64,000 bases of DNA from Hyalangium ruber. Lineage in GTDB: Bacteria; Myxococcota; Myxococcia; Myxococcales; Myxococcaceae. The stretch is taken from contig NZ_JAXIVS010000001.1 of assembly GCF_034259325.1 (NCBI RefSeq), positions 682,001-746,000 of the forward strand, given 5' to 3'. The stretch's first letter is position 1. Each line of letters starts with the position of its first letter. Made by a program: the position numbers and the translations under genes. A model generated the notes under the pieces. That model did not search any database, had not been told where the DNA came from, and saw only the letters and a program-made list of their open reading frames with translations. Below are positions 13,119 to 20,149 of this stretch, piece by piece.

Positions 13119-13297
13119 GTCCGTAAGGCAGCCGACCGACCCCAGAAGGGAAAATTCCTTCCCTCTCACGGTGGAGAACGACCGTGGAACGGGGGCTTAC
13201 CGGCGCACCTGCCCTGCCGCGCGTCCCCTGCTGGACACTCGGCCGCCGGGCATCCGCGTTGCACCTGAAGCTCGCGGGCTGCGGCGTGGAGGCGGGC

Positions 13298-14485
13298 ATG
13301 GCGGGTGGGCGTGGGGCGGATCAGAATTGGCGGGGCCTTCTCGCCGCAGTCCTCTTGAGTTCACCGGCGCTGGCGCAGGAGCCAGTGGACGAGGCAGCGC
13401 CGGAGTCCACCGAGGAGGCGCCGATCGAGACGGCGGCGATGGACACGACGGCGTTGCCCTCGGTGGAGCGCGAGGTGCCCGCGGTGGACGTGGCGGCGCC
13501 CGTGGCCACCCCCGAGGCGCCGAAGAAGAAGAAGAAGAAGAAGGAAGCGAAGGTGGAGCCGCTGGGTGAGAACCCGGACGCGGCGGATGACGCGAAGCAT
13601 GAGCGCAAGCTGCGCGTCTTCGGGCGTGTCTTCGCGCGGGCCAGCGCCGACGAGCGCGAGGACTTCACGCGCTCCATCTCGGTGTCCTCGGCCCGCCTGG
13701 GGGTGACGACCTCCTTCGAATATGTCGAGGCCGAGGTGACGGCGGACCTGTCCTCGAAGTCGATGCTCAAGGATGCCTTCGTGCGGCTGTCCGACAGCGC
13801 CAAGCAGCTGCGCCTCTATGGTGGCCAGTTCAAGGCGCCCTTCCTGGCGCGCACGCTGGAGTCCACGTGGGACCTGCCGCTCATGCGCCGGGGGCTCGTG
13901 GAGGACTACCTCACGGAGACGCACGCGATGGGCGGTCGGCGCCTGGGGCTGATGGGCGAGGTGCGCCTGAAGGAGACGTGGAACCTCAAGGTGTCCGGCG
14001 GCCTCTTCGAGGGCTCGAAGGATGAGCTGGGCCAGCGCACCAGTGAGGACGCCTCGGCGCGCGTGAGCGTGCGTCCTTTCAAGGCGCTCACCGTGGGGGC
14101 CAGCAGCTACATGTCCCAGGTCTTCGAGGGCACGAAGAAGCACGCGGTGGCCGCGGACGGCACGCTGGAGCTGGGCAACCTGGCGCTGTCGGGCGAGGCC
14201 GTCACCGGGCAGTTGGCGCTGGGGCCCTTCACCGCGCAGATGGGGCTGGTGAGCTACACGCTGCCGCTGGGCAAGACGCGGGAGTGGGCCGTGCAGCCCC
14301 TCCTCGGCGGCGAGGCCCTGCAGCTTCGGGGCGAGGTGACGGGGCGTGGCTGGGCGGCCGTGGGGGGTTTCAACATCCTCTATTCCGACTCCTTCAAGGC
14401 CCAGCTGCAGGCCGAGCGCGCGCTGCGTCCGGGGGATGAGGCCCCGGGCACCGAGTACTCGCTGCAGCTCGCCACACGCTTCTAG
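13298..14485 (+). CDS. Outer-membrane porin, phosphate-selective porin-like
   Basis: 395 residues from ATG 13298, chosen for GGAGG six bases upstream and a following signal peptide ending SSPALAQ. The mature N terminus is Ala/Glu/Thr-rich with a run of seven lysines (near residue 75) before the barrel. The barrel part resembles the OprP/OprO-like family: YGGQFKAPFLARTLESTWDLPLMRRGLVEDYL is the usual strand-loop with Arg-rich pore motif, and the last residues (YSLQLATRF) form a typical C-terminal barrel strand ending in Phe. It heads a five-gene operon; the VTC gene begins 15 bases later. If it passes anions such as phosphate or pyrophosphate, it would fit a polyphosphate role, but this is inference. 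Confidence 0.78.
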   Translation: MAGGRGADQNWRGLLAAVLLSSPALAQEPVDEAAPESTEEAPIETAAMDTTALPSVEREVPAVDVAAPVATPEAPKKKKKKKEAKVEPLGENPDAADDAKHERKLRVFGRVFARASADEREDFTRSISVSSARLGVTTSFEYVEAEVTADLSSKSMLKDAFVRLSDSAKQLRLYGGQFKAPFLARTLESTWDLPLMRRGLVEDYLTETHAMGGRRLGLMGEVRLKETWNLKVSGGLFEGSKDELGQRTSEDASARVSVRPFKALTVGASSYMSQVFEGTKKHAVAADGTLELGNLALSGEAVTGQLALGPFTAQMGLVSYTLPLGKTREWAVQPLLGGEALQLRGEVTGRGWAAVGGFNILYSDSFKAQLQAERALRPGDEAPGTEYSLQLATRF

Positions 14486-14500
14486 GGACGGAGGCTCGAG

Positions 14501-15217
14501 ATGCTCTCGTTCGCCGAAGGGGAAGTCACCAAGCTGCGCCGTGAGTTCAAGCTCGTGCTGGAGGCGCAAGAGGCGCTCCAGCTCTGCTCGCGGCTGTCCT
14601 CGGAGCTGGGCGGGTGCCTGCCACCGCCCACGCGGATCGTCTCCGTGTACTTCGACAAGCCGGGCCTGCCGCTCACGCACCGCGCGGTCTGTACGCCGGA
14701 GGACTGCCTCAAGGTGCGTACCAAGGAGTACTCGCCGGACATGGGGGCCGGCGGCGTGCAGCGCGTGGTGCTGGAGGTGAAGCGCGAGCGCAACGGGGTG
14801 ACGCAGAAGCGGCGGGTGTGGGTGCCGCGCTCGGAGCTGCGCCAGGTGATTCGGCGGGGTAGCCGCTTGCTGCCGCTCATCGCAGGGGGCAGCTTGCTGC
14901 CGGTGCTGGGGGTGACGTACCGGCGGCATGTGTACCAGGCCACGCACGCCTGGCGGGTGACGGTGGACCGGGACATCGGCTTCCACCACGTCACCTCCGA
15001 GCTGGCGCTGTCGGAGACGACGCTCACCCCCGAGCAGTTGGGCGCTCCGCTGTTCGAGGACGGGCGCGTGGTGGTGGAAGTGAAGCACCTGGGCGCGGAG
15101 CTGCCGTCATGGCTGGCGGCGCTCCACCCGGGGAGCAGGAAGCCGGCGTACAGCAAGTTCGCCGAGGGGATGGCGAAGGTTCACGCCTTCGCCGCGGATG
15201 GGGTTCTTGGGGGCTAG
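14501..15217 (+). CDS. VTC-domain polyphosphate-polymerase-like protein
   Basis: 238 residues, almost entirely a VTC domain, the catalytic fold of the yeast vacuolar polyphosphate polymerase Vtc4. The tunnel's basic and acidic landmarks can be followed: RREFKLVL, VYFDKPGL, KVRTKEYSPD, VVLEVKRERNGVTQKRR, YRRHVYQ, WRVTVDRDIGF and VVEVKHLG near the end. This is the complete set of Arg/Lys/Glu motifs expected for binding ATP and polyphosphate, so activity is plausible. There is no membrane segment; the membrane part is probably supplied by the DUF4956 protein two genes down. The start at ATG 14501 follows GGAGG. It is known that bacterial VTC domains often sit beside DUF4956 genes. Confidence 0.85.
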   Translation: MLSFAEGEVTKLRREFKLVLEAQEALQLCSRLSSELGGCLPPPTRIVSVYFDKPGLPLTHRAVCTPEDCLKVRTKEYSPDMGAGGVQRVVLEVKRERNGVTQKRRVWVPRSELRQVIRRGSRLLPLIAGGSLLPVLGVTYRRHVYQATHAWRVTVDRDIGFHHVTSELALSETTLTPEQLGAPLFEDGRVVVEVKHLGAELPSWLAALHPGSRKPAYSKFAEGMAKVHAFAADGVLGG

Positions 15218-15223
15218 GGCACC

Positions 15224-16918
15224 GTGTTCATCGACTTCGAAGGCATTGACGGCAGCGGAAAGACAACGCTCTCCAACCTCCTGGCCGCCCGGCTGCGGCG
15301 GCTGGGCTACAAGGTGGCGCACGCGCGCGAGGGAGGCGAGCTGCAGGCGCCCACGGCGCGGCGCATCCGGGAGCTGACGCGCGACGCGCGGCTCCTGGAG
15401 ATGTGCCCGCGCACCGAGTTCTTCCTCAACCTGGCGCGCGACGCGCAGCAGCTCGAGGAGGTCATCGCTCCCGCGCTGTCCCGAGGCGAGCTGTGCATCA
15501 GCGATCGCTACCTGTACTCGCAGCTGGCCCTGAGCGGCGGCGGGCGCGGCCTGCCCATGGAGGAGCTGGCGCCGGCGTGCGCCATGGCCTCGAAGGGCCT
15601 CTGGCCGGACCTCGTCATCCTCGTGGACGTGGAGCCGGACCTGGCGCGGCTGCGCAAGCGGCTGGGCAAGCTGAAGGAGGGCCGCAGCTCGGACGGCGAC
15701 AGCCGCAAGGGGCTGGTGGGCGCGGGGCTGGCGGTGCGTGTGCGCGAGTCCTTCCTGGAGATGGCGCGCAAGGATCCGTCGCGCTGGCTCATCATCGAGA
15801 ACAACGAGCAGCCGCTGTGGGTGCTGGAGCAGCGCATCGTCGACGCGGTGGTGGCGCGGCTGCAGGGGCGCGAGCCCCAGGTGCAGCGCATCTCCCCCTC
15901 CAACACCGTGCCGATGGAGCCGGTGACGGTGGACAGCGTGGAGGAGCGCTTCTTCCACGCGCTGGACTCGCTGGAGGTGCGCGAGCCCTCCCTGGCGGTG
16001 TGGATGTTGGGCGGCATGCCCGGGCTGGCGGCGCACCAGCGGCGCCTGGCGGCCGTGGAGCGCTTCCCGGGGCTGGCCGTGCGCAGCCTCACGGGGCTGG
16101 AGGACGAGGCCGCCTGGGCGCTGCGTGAGCTGCTGGCCAAGGTGGTGCCGGTGGATGTGGTGGCCAGCCTCGGCACCAGCCTGTCGCCTCGGGCCATGGC
16201 GCTGCGCGAGCAGCTCTATGAGCTGGCCCCGGGCGAGGTGCTCGCGGGTCTCAAGCGCAACGACAGCCCCGAGGCCTGGGCCCTGCGCGAGCGCGGCATG
16301 AGGGACCGGAAGCTCGCCGAGGTGCTGCTGGGCCTCGCGGGCGTGGACGGAGAGGCGGCCTGGTCCGTGCGCGAGCTGGGGGTGCAGAAGAAGCTGTACG
16401 CCGAGGTGGCGCGCAGCCTCACGGGCCTGAGCGGCGAGCGGGTGGACGCGCTCCGCGAGGCGCTGCTGCCCCATGACCGGCTCTCGGTGCTGCGCAGCAT
16501 CACCGGCCTGGACTCGCCCTTCGCCAACGGCCTGCGCGAGCAGCTCGAGGGCAAGGCGCTCAAGCTGGTGCTGCGCTCGCTCACGGGCCTCACCACCGAC
16601 GAGGCCTTCGCGCTGCGCGAGCGCGGCGCTCCGCTGACGAAGGAGGCCATCGACTCGCTGGACGGGCTGGATGATCCGCGCGCGTGGCAGCTGCGCGAGC
16701 AGTACGCGGAGCGCTGGCCGGCCACGGTGCTGTCCTCGCTCAAGGGGCTGCCGATGACGGCACGCGCCGAGGCGCTCATCGTCCGCATCCTGAGCGCCGC
16801 GCCCGGCAGACTGCCGCTCCTGCGCAACGCCTATGGCGTCATCGCCGCCTCGCACGAGGCCCCGGCCGAGCGCACGGCGCGTCCGGCGGCCAGCACCGAG
16901 TCGCGGGTCACGGTCTAG
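15224..16918 (+). CDS. Thymidylate-kinase-like P-loop protein with long repeat tail
   Basis: 564 residues from GTG 15224. Residues 1 to about 215 match the thymidylate kinase fold: FIDFEGIDGSGKTTLSNLL (P-loop), the AREGG equivalent of REPGG, and SDRYLYSQLAL (DRY motif). The remainder is about eight repeats of roughly 28 residues with the consensus LRSLTGLxxxxAWALRExxx, near residues 285-520, likely an alpha-helical solenoid. A normal dTMP kinase is about 210 residues, so the tail is extra. It lies 6 bases after the VTC gene and is directly followed by the DUF4956 gene, so it more likely acts on a nucleotide or phosphate connected with polyphosphate than in dTTP synthesis. That substrate is inference. 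Confidence 0.8.
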   Translation: MFIDFEGIDGSGKTTLSNLLAARLRRLGYKVAHAREGGELQAPTARRIRELTRDARLLEMCPRTEFFLNLARDAQQLEEVIAPALSRGELCISDRYLYSQLALSGGGRGLPMEELAPACAMASKGLWPDLVILVDVEPDLARLRKRLGKLKEGRSSDGDSRKGLVGAGLAVRVRESFLEMARKDPSRWLIIENNEQPLWVLEQRIVDAVVARLQGREPQVQRISPSNTVPMEPVTVDSVEERFFHALDSLEVREPSLAVWMLGGMPGLAAHQRRLAAVERFPGLAVRSLTGLEDEAAWALRELLAKVVPVDVVASLGTSLSPRAMALREQLYELAPGEVLAGLKRNDSPEAWALRERGMRDRKLAEVLLGLAGVDGEAAWSVRELGVQKKLYAEVARSLTGLSGERVDALREALLPHDRLSVLRSITGLDSPFANGLREQLEGKALKLVLRSLTGLTTDEAFALRERGAPLTKEAIDSLDGLDDPRAWQLREQYAERWPATVLSSLKGLPMTARAEALIVRILSAAPGRLPLLRNAYGVIAASHEAPAERTARPAASTESRVTV

Positions 16919-16927
16919 GTGAGCGCC

Positions 16928-17629
16928 ATGGAACCTACCTTCACGCAGCTGTTCAGCGAGGTCGGCAAGGAGTTCACCTCGCTGAACGTGGGCGCCATCC
17001 TGCCGCGCATGGTGGCGGCGGTGATCATCGGCGCCGTGCTGTCGCTGCGTCCCTGGCGCCCGCTCATGGGGCGGGCGATGCCCAAGTCGGAGATGATCCA
17101 GGCCCAGGTGCTCCTATGCACCGCGGCCGCCGTCATCACCGCCGTCATCGGCGACAGCCTGGCCAAGGCCTTCGGGTTGGTGGGCCTGGGCGGCTTCGTG
17201 CGCTTCCGCTCGGGGCTCAAGGATCCGCGCGACGCGGCGATCCTCTTCCTGATGATCGGCCTGGGCATGGCCTGCGGGCACGGCAGCCTGGGGCTGGCGG
17301 GCGTGGGCACGGTGTTCGTCGCCCTGCTGCTGCTGGTGCTCGACTTCTTCAACAAGGAGGAGAAGGTCGCCAAGCAGCGGGTGGTGCTATCGGCGCAGGC
17401 GGATGACCTCATCGGCGCGGAGGCCTCGCTGCGCAAGGCGCTGGGCGAGCGCAACGTGCTGGTGAAGGGCTGTGCGTTCGACTTCGACGGGCGCCGGCTG
17501 GAGCTGGAAGTGGAAGAGAAGGAACCCGGGACCCTCGCCCAGGCGCTGGGCCGGACGGAGGGCGCGCCCCTGCGTGGGCTGCGATGGACCGCGGTGAACC
17601 CCAAAGGTGGACGGGAGGAACTCGTATGA
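16928..17629 (+). CDS. DUF4956 membrane protein
   Basis: 233 residues from ATG 16928; a GTG at 16919, touching the previous stop, is the alternative start. Three to four membrane helices fill the first 145 residues (VAAVIIGAVLSL, VLLCTAAAVITAVIG, ILFLMIGLGMACG, VFVALLLLVLDFF). Between them is the DUF4956 signature LGGFVRFRSGLKDPRDAA, whose Arg/Lys cluster faces one membrane side. A cytoplasmic alpha/beta tail of about 80 residues follows. The family function is unproven; its frequent pairing with VTC domains suggests it holds the polymerase at the membrane or passes its product. Its stop overlaps the start of the lipoprotein gene (ATGA). Confidence 0.87.
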   Translation: MEPTFTQLFSEVGKEFTSLNVGAILPRMVAAVIIGAVLSLRPWRPLMGRAMPKSEMIQAQVLLCTAAAVITAVIGDSLAKAFGLVGLGGFVRFRSGLKDPRDAAILFLMIGLGMACGHGSLGLAGVGTVFVALLLLVLDFFNKEEKVAKQRVVLSAQADDLIGAEASLRKALGERNVLVKGCAFDFDGRRLELEVEEKEPGTLAQALGRTEGAPLRGLRWTAVNPKGGREELV

Positions 17630-18526: not shown

Positions 18527-20149
18527 ATGCATCTGGCGAAGGTACCCGCGCTTGGCGCTCTAGCCCTGGCGCTCACTCTGACCACGGGGGCTGCCCACGC
18601 GGCGACCCTCACGCGTACGCCCTATCTGCAACGCGTGGGCCCCGACACGGCCACCGTGGCCTTCCGGCTGGACACCAACTGCTCGCCCGAGGTCCGCTAC
18701 GGCATCAACGGCGCGACGAACCTGGTCGCCCGCTCGCAAGCAAGCGGGCGTGTGCATGCCGTGGTGCTCACCGGGCTGACGCCGGGCGCCGAGTACACCT
18801 ACCTGGTGGAAGGCTGCGGCGCCAAGACCGAGCCCAAGCGCTTCAGCACCGCGCCCGTCCCCGGCACGCGCAAGGTGCGTTTCGCGGCCGTGGGCGACTT
18901 CGGCACCGGCGGCAAGAGCCAGAAGGAAGTGGCCGCCGCCATGCTCACCCAGCAGCCCGAGCTCTTCGTCGCGCTCGGTGACAACGCCTACTCGTCCGGC
19001 ACCGAGGCGGAGATCCAGAACAATCTCTTCGCCCCCATGGCGGCGCTGCTCGCGGAGGTGCCCTTCTTCGCGGTGGCCGGCAACCACGAGTACGTCACCA
19101 ACGCCTCCCAGCCGTACCTGGACAACCTCTACCTGCCCACCAGCCCCAGCGGCGGCGAGCGCTACTACTCGTTCGACTGGGGCCACGTTCACTTCGTGGG
19201 GCTGGACTCGAGCTGCGCCATCGGCCTGGCCTCCAAGGACCTGTGTACCCTGGAGGCGCAGAAGAAGTGGGTGGAGGCGGATCTCGCGGCCAGCACCGCC
19301 GACTGGAAGGTCGTCTACTTCCACCACCCGCCCTGGTCGAGCGGCGAGCACGGCTCGCAGCTGCTCATGCGCCGCGAGTTCGGGCCACTGTTCGAGCGCT
19401 ACGGCGTGGACCTCGTCCTCACCGGGCATGACCACAACTACGAGCGCAGCCACCCCATGCTGGGAAATGACCGGGCTCCCTCGGGCCAGCGTGGCGTCCC
19501 CTACCTCGTGGTGGGCGGCGGCGGCGCCTCCCTGCGCGCATTCTCCGCCTCGCAGCCCGCGTGGAGCGCCAAGCGCAACAACACGGACTTCGGCTTCCTC
19601 GACGTCACCGTCATCGAGGGCACCCTCACCGCCCAGCTCCGGACGCCCAAGGGCGGGGTGATCGACTCCTTCACCCTGACGAAGCAGCTCGCGCCGCGCG
19701 AGGATCCTCCTCCCGCCGCGAAGCTGAGCATCGACGTGGAGGGGGAGCGGGGCAACGCGCCGCACCAGGCCTTCTTCCTCGCCACCCCGCCCTCCTCCGA
19801 CACCACGGTGAGCTGGGACTTCGGAGACGGGCAGAGCGCCGAGGGCACTCAGGTGACGCACCTCTATAACGAGCCGGGCCAGTACACCGTGACGGCGACA
19901 GCCTCCAACGGCGACACGGCCACCACCCAGGTCGCCGTGGCGGAGGCGGACACCGGCGAGGTGCCGACCACGCCAGGAACTCCCGTCACCGGCACCCCGC
20001 AGCCCTCTCCCGGTCCGTCGCAGGGGACGAATCCCCCGCTGTCCGATGAGGGCGGCGCCAGCGCCGGGTGCGCCACCGTCCCCATGGGCGCGTTGCTCCC
20101 GCTGGGTGCGCTCGCCCTGGCCGGGTTGCTGCGCCGCCGGCGGCGCTGA
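18527..20149 (+). CDS. Secreted metallophosphoesterase (purple acid phosphatase-like) with PKD domain and MYXO-CTERM tail
   Basis: 540 residues. A signal peptide ends GAAHA, then an Fn3-like domain (TLTRTPYLQRVGPDTATVAF). The metallophosphoesterase core follows with its metal motifs in order: VGDFGTGG, LGDNAYS, AGNHEY, HHPPW and TGHDHNYER. A PKD domain (VSWDFGDGQSAEGTQVTHLY) lies near residues 400-460. After a Thr/Pro linker the protein ends with GCATVPMGALLPLGALALAGLLRRRRR, shown here as Cys, helix, Arg cluster: the MYXO-CTERM tag for myxosortase-type surface sorting. It probably hydrolyses phosphate esters outside the cell. Translation may be controlled by the hairpin just before the start. 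Confidence 0.9.
   Translation: MHLAKVPALGALALALTLTTGAAHAATLTRTPYLQRVGPDTATVAFRLDTNCSPEVRYGINGATNLVARSQASGRVHAVVLTGLTPGAEYTYLVEGCGAKTEPKRFSTAPVPGTRKVRFAAVGDFGTGGKSQKEVAAAMLTQQPELFVALGDNAYSSGTEAEIQNNLFAPMAALLAEVPFFAVAGNHEYVTNASQPYLDNLYLPTSPSGGERYYSFDWGHVHFVGLDSSCAIGLASKDLCTLEAQKKWVEADLAASTADWKVVYFHHPPWSSGEHGSQLLMRREFGPLFERYGVDLVLTGHDHNYERSHPMLGNDRAPSGQRGVPYLVVGGGGASLRAFSASQPAWSAKRNNTDFGFLDVTVIEGTLTAQLRTPKGGVIDSFTLTKQLAPREDPPPAAKLSIDVEGERGNAPHQAFFLATPPSSDTTVSWDFGDGQSAEGTQVTHLYNEPGQYTVTATASNGDTATTQVAVAEADTGEVPTTPGTPVTGTPQPSPGPSQGTNPPLSDEGGASAGCATVPMGALLPLGALALAGLLRRRRR

Follow-up and report, generated by a model that had tools for sequence, protein, structure and literature searches.

Background

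PPK2 kinases have the thymidylate kinase (TMK) fold, and a cluster of Lys and Arg residues holds polyphosphate between their core and lid (PMC8776046). In the eukaryotic (yeast) VTC, a basic route leads the polyphosphate chain to a membrane channel, and a sensor domain is required (PMC9911596). VTC, DUF4956 and CotH are known as an accessory set at some Pel loci (PMC7112168). Among toroidal repeat proteins, Rpn1 was predicted to have 9 to 11 hairpins (PMC8405992). In the open-licence literature, no paper was found that links a TMK-like protein to VTC or describes the protein studied here, and none on the control of bacterial VTC-type polymerases.

The gene under study lies in Hyalangium ruber (assembly GCF_034259325.1, contig NZ_JAXIVS010000001.1, positions 682,001-746,000, forward strand). 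This whole stretch of 64,000 nt is called the window, and positions are given within it. The gene has a GTG start and an open reading frame (15224-16918, + strand) of 564 amino acids, with a TMK domain (residues 1-213) followed by approximately 310 residues of tandem repeats. We refer to its product, after the predicted shape of the tail, as the TMK-ring protein. TMK-ring clusters and the Pel-locus set have VTC, DUF4956 and often CotH in common. However, the Pel-locus set (PMC7112168) does not include a TMK-ring gene, whereas here, in two phyla, this gene adjoins VTC, and the Myxococcota clusters also have a porin-like gene.

Results

Locus and gene neighbourhood

The following features were assigned in the window:

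13184-14485, + strand: porin-like outer-membrane beta-barrel gene, conserved upstream of VTC
14501-15217, + strand: VTC-domain gene (triphosphate-tunnel polyphosphate polymerase; PF09359, 3.4e-16), directly upstream of the TMK-ring gene
15224-15862, + strand: TMK-like P-loop kinase domain with a rebuilt thymine pocket, residues 1-213 (Pfam/NCBIfam, Foldseek, residue table versus canonical Tmks, tree)
15929-16843, + strand: repeat domain covering residues 236-540, with 11 helical hairpins, each about 27 residues long, predicted closed toroid (autocorrelation, model, alignment)
16919-17629, + strand: DUF4956/MgtC-like presumed membrane protein gene (PF16316, 2.2e-11), its GTG abutting the TMK-ring stop codon
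17584-18396, + strand: probable lipoprotein, conserved downstream, no significant family
18527-20149, + strand: purple-acid-phosphatase-like metallophosphoesterase with PKD and MYXO-CTERM (domain matches), conserved downstream in Myxococcaceae

The porin-like, VTC, TMK-ring and DUF4956 genes form a run on the same strand with gaps of 15, 6 and 0 bases. The promoter scan of the cluster did not find a sigma-70-type site. The product of the porin-like gene has no Pfam match; it is our reading that it is a porin, and the gene is homologous to the barrel gene of the paralogous cluster described below (hhalign probability 98 %). In Planctomycetota, the ORF upstream of VTC was also considered as the same porin, which hhalign did not support. 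The conserved phosphatase-like gene downstream suggests a phosphate-handling locus.

When 93 TMK-ring loci from two phyla were compared (some of them being one gene fetched twice), 91 had VTC immediately upstream, in the same orientation. The remaining two are a locus at a contig edge (L097) and the paralog of the window genome on contig C7. This gene order strongly supports the link to VTC that had been made in an earlier reading from the sequence alone (hereafter the sequence-only reading). In Myxococcota, as in several loci of Planctomycetota, the gene that follows the TMK-ring gene encodes DUF4956. The tunnel motifs RxExK, [KT]xR, ExK, RxTxD, ExK and SKF are preserved in the VTC neighbours (16 loci), and these proteins are bare catalytic domains of about 240 amino acids without a sensor domain.

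Some Planctomycetota clusters have additional genes. Four CotH-like genes in tandem, together with DUF4956 and VTC, are present in L036 (7668-12990) and L037 (6496-11660). Two others, L031 (439-2508) and L034 (268-2814), start with a large protein with lamin-tail and dockerin-like domains, and a coiled-coil protein without a recognised family lies between this protein and VTC.

Kinase domain

Residues 5-196 match Pfam Thymidylate_kin (PF02223, E-value 9e-26), and residues 1-196 score 97.2 bits against TIGR00041 (dTMP_kinase), above the cut-off of 83.25. The dTMP-kinase motifs that the sequence-only reading had seen in the first 215 residues were thus confirmed by both models. Among solved structures, the best Foldseek matches of the full-length model were solely TMKs (E-value about 1e-9). 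PPK2 (PF03976) was absent among the Pfam matches of the protein at E-values up to 1. Since the equivalog cut-off of TIGR00041 is passed, automatic annotation would name the protein a dTMP kinase, which is probably a systematic misannotation.

Residues of the active site were compared in 24 members, divergent ones included. K13 (P-loop/Walker A), R35, R49, R95, R144 and R161 (lid) are invariant in all 24 and R174 is retained in 23, while D94, which forms the DR motif with R95, is invariant across the 19 members of alignment A1. Position 73, which we take from TMK structures to be the site of the thymine-contacting Arg of Tmk, is occupied by Asp or Glu in 24/24 members. The Tyr103-Gln104 pair of the Tmk acceptor site is kept in none of them, and the residues at these positions vary between clades (Leu, His; Ser, Ala). 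The lid Glu of Tmk is replaced by Gly in 23/24. Six positions near the acceptor site and lid (53, 72, 108, 142, 146 and 162) have become basic relative to canonical Tmks. As ATP and catalytic residues are kept while the thymine pocket is lost and basic positions are gained, the kinase frame is intact and the acceptor site rebuilt.

In summary, bacterial Tmk (PF02223, TIGR00041) and the TMK-ring protein share the fold, P-loop, DR motif, REPG-type Arg and lid Arg, but the latter differs in the changes at the acceptor site and lid listed above, in its predicted C-terminal ring and in its position next to VTC. Of the carrier genomes, six were tested (five from Planctomycetota plus the window genome), and each of them also has a separate and stronger canonical Tmk, with Tmk scores of 125-172 bits versus 75-94 bits for the TMK-ring protein. 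A tree of 31 sequences separated the TMK-ring family from the canonical Tmks at 100/100 support, with a branch of 1.73.

Repeat domain

The autocorrelation of the tail peaks at a lag of 27 (-0.06), which exceeds all 500 shuffles (maximum -0.32). LRE/VRE-type motifs at residues 300, 327, 354, 382, 410, 437, 464 and 490 mark eight clear units with a period of 26-28 residues, most often 27, and R274 lies in a ninth, degenerate unit. The sequence-only reading had counted eight repeats of 28 residues; the eight clear units stand, but the period peaks at 27, and the degenerate ninth unit and the 11 modelled hairpins have to be added.

That reading had not recognised the repeat family and had named HEAT and LRV as well-known families to be checked. 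The Pfam search of 19 tails (E-values up to 10) returned no HEAT, LRV or TPR model. The one Arm match (E-value 0.36) is under the cut-off and outside the repeats. The tail profile matched none of the PDB chains at E-values up to 1, and PC repeats (PF01851) gave no sequence match to the tail in Pfam or PDB. With both searches empty, a known repeat family was rejected for the tail.

The AlphaFold2 models had a pLDDT of 89.7 and a pTM of 0.88 for the full-length protein, and a pLDDT of 96.0 and a pTM of 0.89 for the tail alone. The prediction of the tail structure, which had been suggested as a check along with the first reading, thus gave a confident, toroid-like model, in which 22 helices form 11 hairpins (residues 236 to 540). 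When the tail model was aligned with VIA-align, ranks 1-25 were all Rpn1/Rpn2 (Z 12.2-15.2, rmsd 4.5-5.6 A, 283-304 residues). Because a chance arrangement of helical repeats can give Z values up to 13, the ring is counted as a prediction. Armadillo/HEAT chains came next, at Z 9-11 and rmsd mostly of 10-20 A. Foldseek with the tail alone found no match in PDB or viral models at E-values up to 0.001.

Tail length provides independent support. It is 301-315 residues in 68 of the 69 distinct tails, and the remaining one (256) is cut short, so that no member has gained or lost a 27-residue unit. Open solenoids usually differ in unit number, and the fixed number of repeats therefore argues for a closed ring. 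We consider an open solenoid, as proposed in the sequence-only reading, less likely given the toroid match and the constant unit number, and the tail is instead predicted to be a closed toroid of 11 short helical hairpins. A role as binding or scaffold domain is plausible.

The Rpn1/Rpn2 toroids, with two-helix repeats closed in a ring, are the best structural match of the whole modelled tail, over about 300 residues. However, the unit of the predicted bacterial ring is shorter, about 27 residues against up to 40 (PC repeats have 35-40), and the ring shares 8-13 % identity with them and shows no sequence kinship in these searches. HEAT, LRV and armadillo proteins also have two-helix repeats and a conserved Arg in one helix, but differ from the tail in register and length, in addition to the Pfam result and the high rmsd.

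Each of nine units has one Arg that is kept in 67-69 of the 69 distinct tails; along its helix, this Arg is central in the conserved face (A-4, L-1, L+3). A polyphosphate-binding Arg ladder was rejected as the leading idea because of this position and because the arginines are kept in a VTC-less homologue without the lid motif (L110, see below). The nine arginines are likelier to form a structural ladder between repeats than a polyphosphate-binding one.

Distribution, paralogs and outliers

With the tail profile, the TMK-ring family was found in 75 of 195 Myxococcota genomes (76 matched, of which G009 was left out as a weak match of 64 positions) and in 13 of 294 Planctomycetota genomes. VTC is present in 94 of the same 195 genomes. 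The Pfam model detects VTC in 70 of the 75 carriers. Three more (G026, G008 and G035) carry a divergent VTC immediately upstream of the TMK-ring gene, and in G027 the locus is interrupted by a contig edge. Only G073 appears without VTC. One true VTC-less carrier among 75 is the pattern expected for an accessory of VTC. About 24 Myxococcota genomes have VTC without the TMK-ring family, which therefore looks like an optional accessory. VTC also occurs without the family in other phyla.

The solo homologue of G073 (L110, 3109-5223) is flanked by sirtuin-like and RNA methyltransferase-like genes and has no VTC nearby. It has lost the RKGL motif of the lid and retains the ring repeats. The window genome has a second TMK-repeat gene, 39 % identical, on contig C7 (L102, 3459-6837), located between CotH and DUF4956 with no VTC there, and a lone VTC on contig C8. 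In relatives (L111), the paralogous cluster has the order CotH, VTC, porin-like gene, TMK-repeat gene and DUF4956. The cluster, with myxobacterial gene order and a TMK-repeat gene of 74 % identity, also occurs in a record titled 'Comamonas sp. KCTC 72670' (L012), which, by these features, may be mislabelled.

Discussion

The association of the TMK-ring family with VTC is strong. On the precedents of PPK2 and yeast VTC, we favour, tentatively and at slightly less than an even chance, that the protein is a dedicated accessory phosphotransferase of the bacterial VTC polyphosphate system, docked by its ring and acting on polyphosphate or a primer. The kinase domain would derive from a thymidylate kinase. 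Its thymidylate pocket is gone, whereas the ATP site is kept, as are the lid arginine and the arginines that clamp phosphate. The predicted ring of 11 hairpins would, as we infer, be a docking platform, with the adjacent VTC or DUF4956 protein as the likeliest partner. VTC polymerase is proposed to make polyphosphate from ATP, and beside it the kinase domain would shift phosphate between a nucleotide and a phosphate-rich acceptor. By analogy with the TMK-like PPK2 kinases, the likeliest acceptor would be the chain of polyphosphate itself or a short primer. The chain reaching the membrane protein would thereby be started, trimmed or gated.

PPK2 resembles the TMK-ring protein in its TMK-like P-loop architecture and phosphate-polymer context, and we also count its Lys/Arg-rich cleft between core and lid (PMC8776046) as a likeness. 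However, the TMK-ring protein does not match PPK2 and is clearly nearer Tmk in sequence, and polyphosphate binding is conjectural by this analogy. We count against the accessory phosphotransferase the lack of a PPK2 match, the ring kept in L110 without VTC, and the occurrence of VTC elsewhere without the family. A more specific version is speculative and in our view unlikely: that the closed ring of 11 hairpins, shaped like Rpn1/Rpn2 and unrelated to them in sequence, holds the TMK-derived kinase on VTC, where it acts directly on the growing polyphosphate chain as a built-in starter or terminator for bacterial VTC.

Two rivals of the accessory phosphotransferase have to be taken seriously: a nucleotide kinase with altered specificity and a nucleotide sensor. 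In the first, Asp/Glu73 could recognise a different base (cytosine, adenine or guanine), and the protein would be an ordinary nucleotide kinase with changed specificity. We regard it as somewhat unlikely that such a nucleoside monophosphate kinase is tethered by the ring and recycles nucleotides beside VTC (e.g. ADP or AMP left by polymerisation). In its favour, the catalytic frame is fully retained, an acidic residue instead of the thymine-reading Arg in every member compared is what is expected for a base with an amino group, and VTC releases ADP from ATP. However, residues that differ by clade at the Tyr-Gln positions for sugar and base would be odd for one nucleotide, and the six gained basic positions suit a more anionic ligand. 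In a nucleotide-sensing regulator, the kinase domain would bind ATP or some other nucleotide with no relevant turnover, and the ring would toggle VTC, like the SPX sensor domains of yeast VTC. The constant pairing with VTC fits this role, as does the lack of a sensor domain in the bacterial VTC proteins here when yeast VTC requires one (PMC9911596). Yet all 24 members show strict conservation of the catalytic residues, which suggests turnover, and we consider such a sensor improbable.

That the protein is a genuine dTMP kinase with an extra tail would agree with the TIGR00041 score and the intact kinase core. Against this are the acidic residue at the thymine Arg and the loss of Tyr-Gln throughout, the canonical Tmk in each genome tested, the clade of its own in the tree and the fixed link to VTC. 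We give this explanation very little weight. Because the thymidylate pocket is lost, dTMP kinase activity is very unlikely.

The protein combines a kinase fold that is already known with a new acceptor site and with a repeat domain absent from Pfam, and it is probably a dedicated, undescribed accessory of the polyphosphate machinery. Its misnaming as dTMP kinase, an essential enzyme and drug target, would affect genome annotation and essential-gene lists. If the prediction is true, bacteria would have, in this tail, a compact closed helical ring whose repeat is shorter than that of the proteasome toroids. Bacterial VTC-type polymerases are found in many phyla, and the TMK-ring protein would, if the proposal holds, be the first dedicated partner protein for them.
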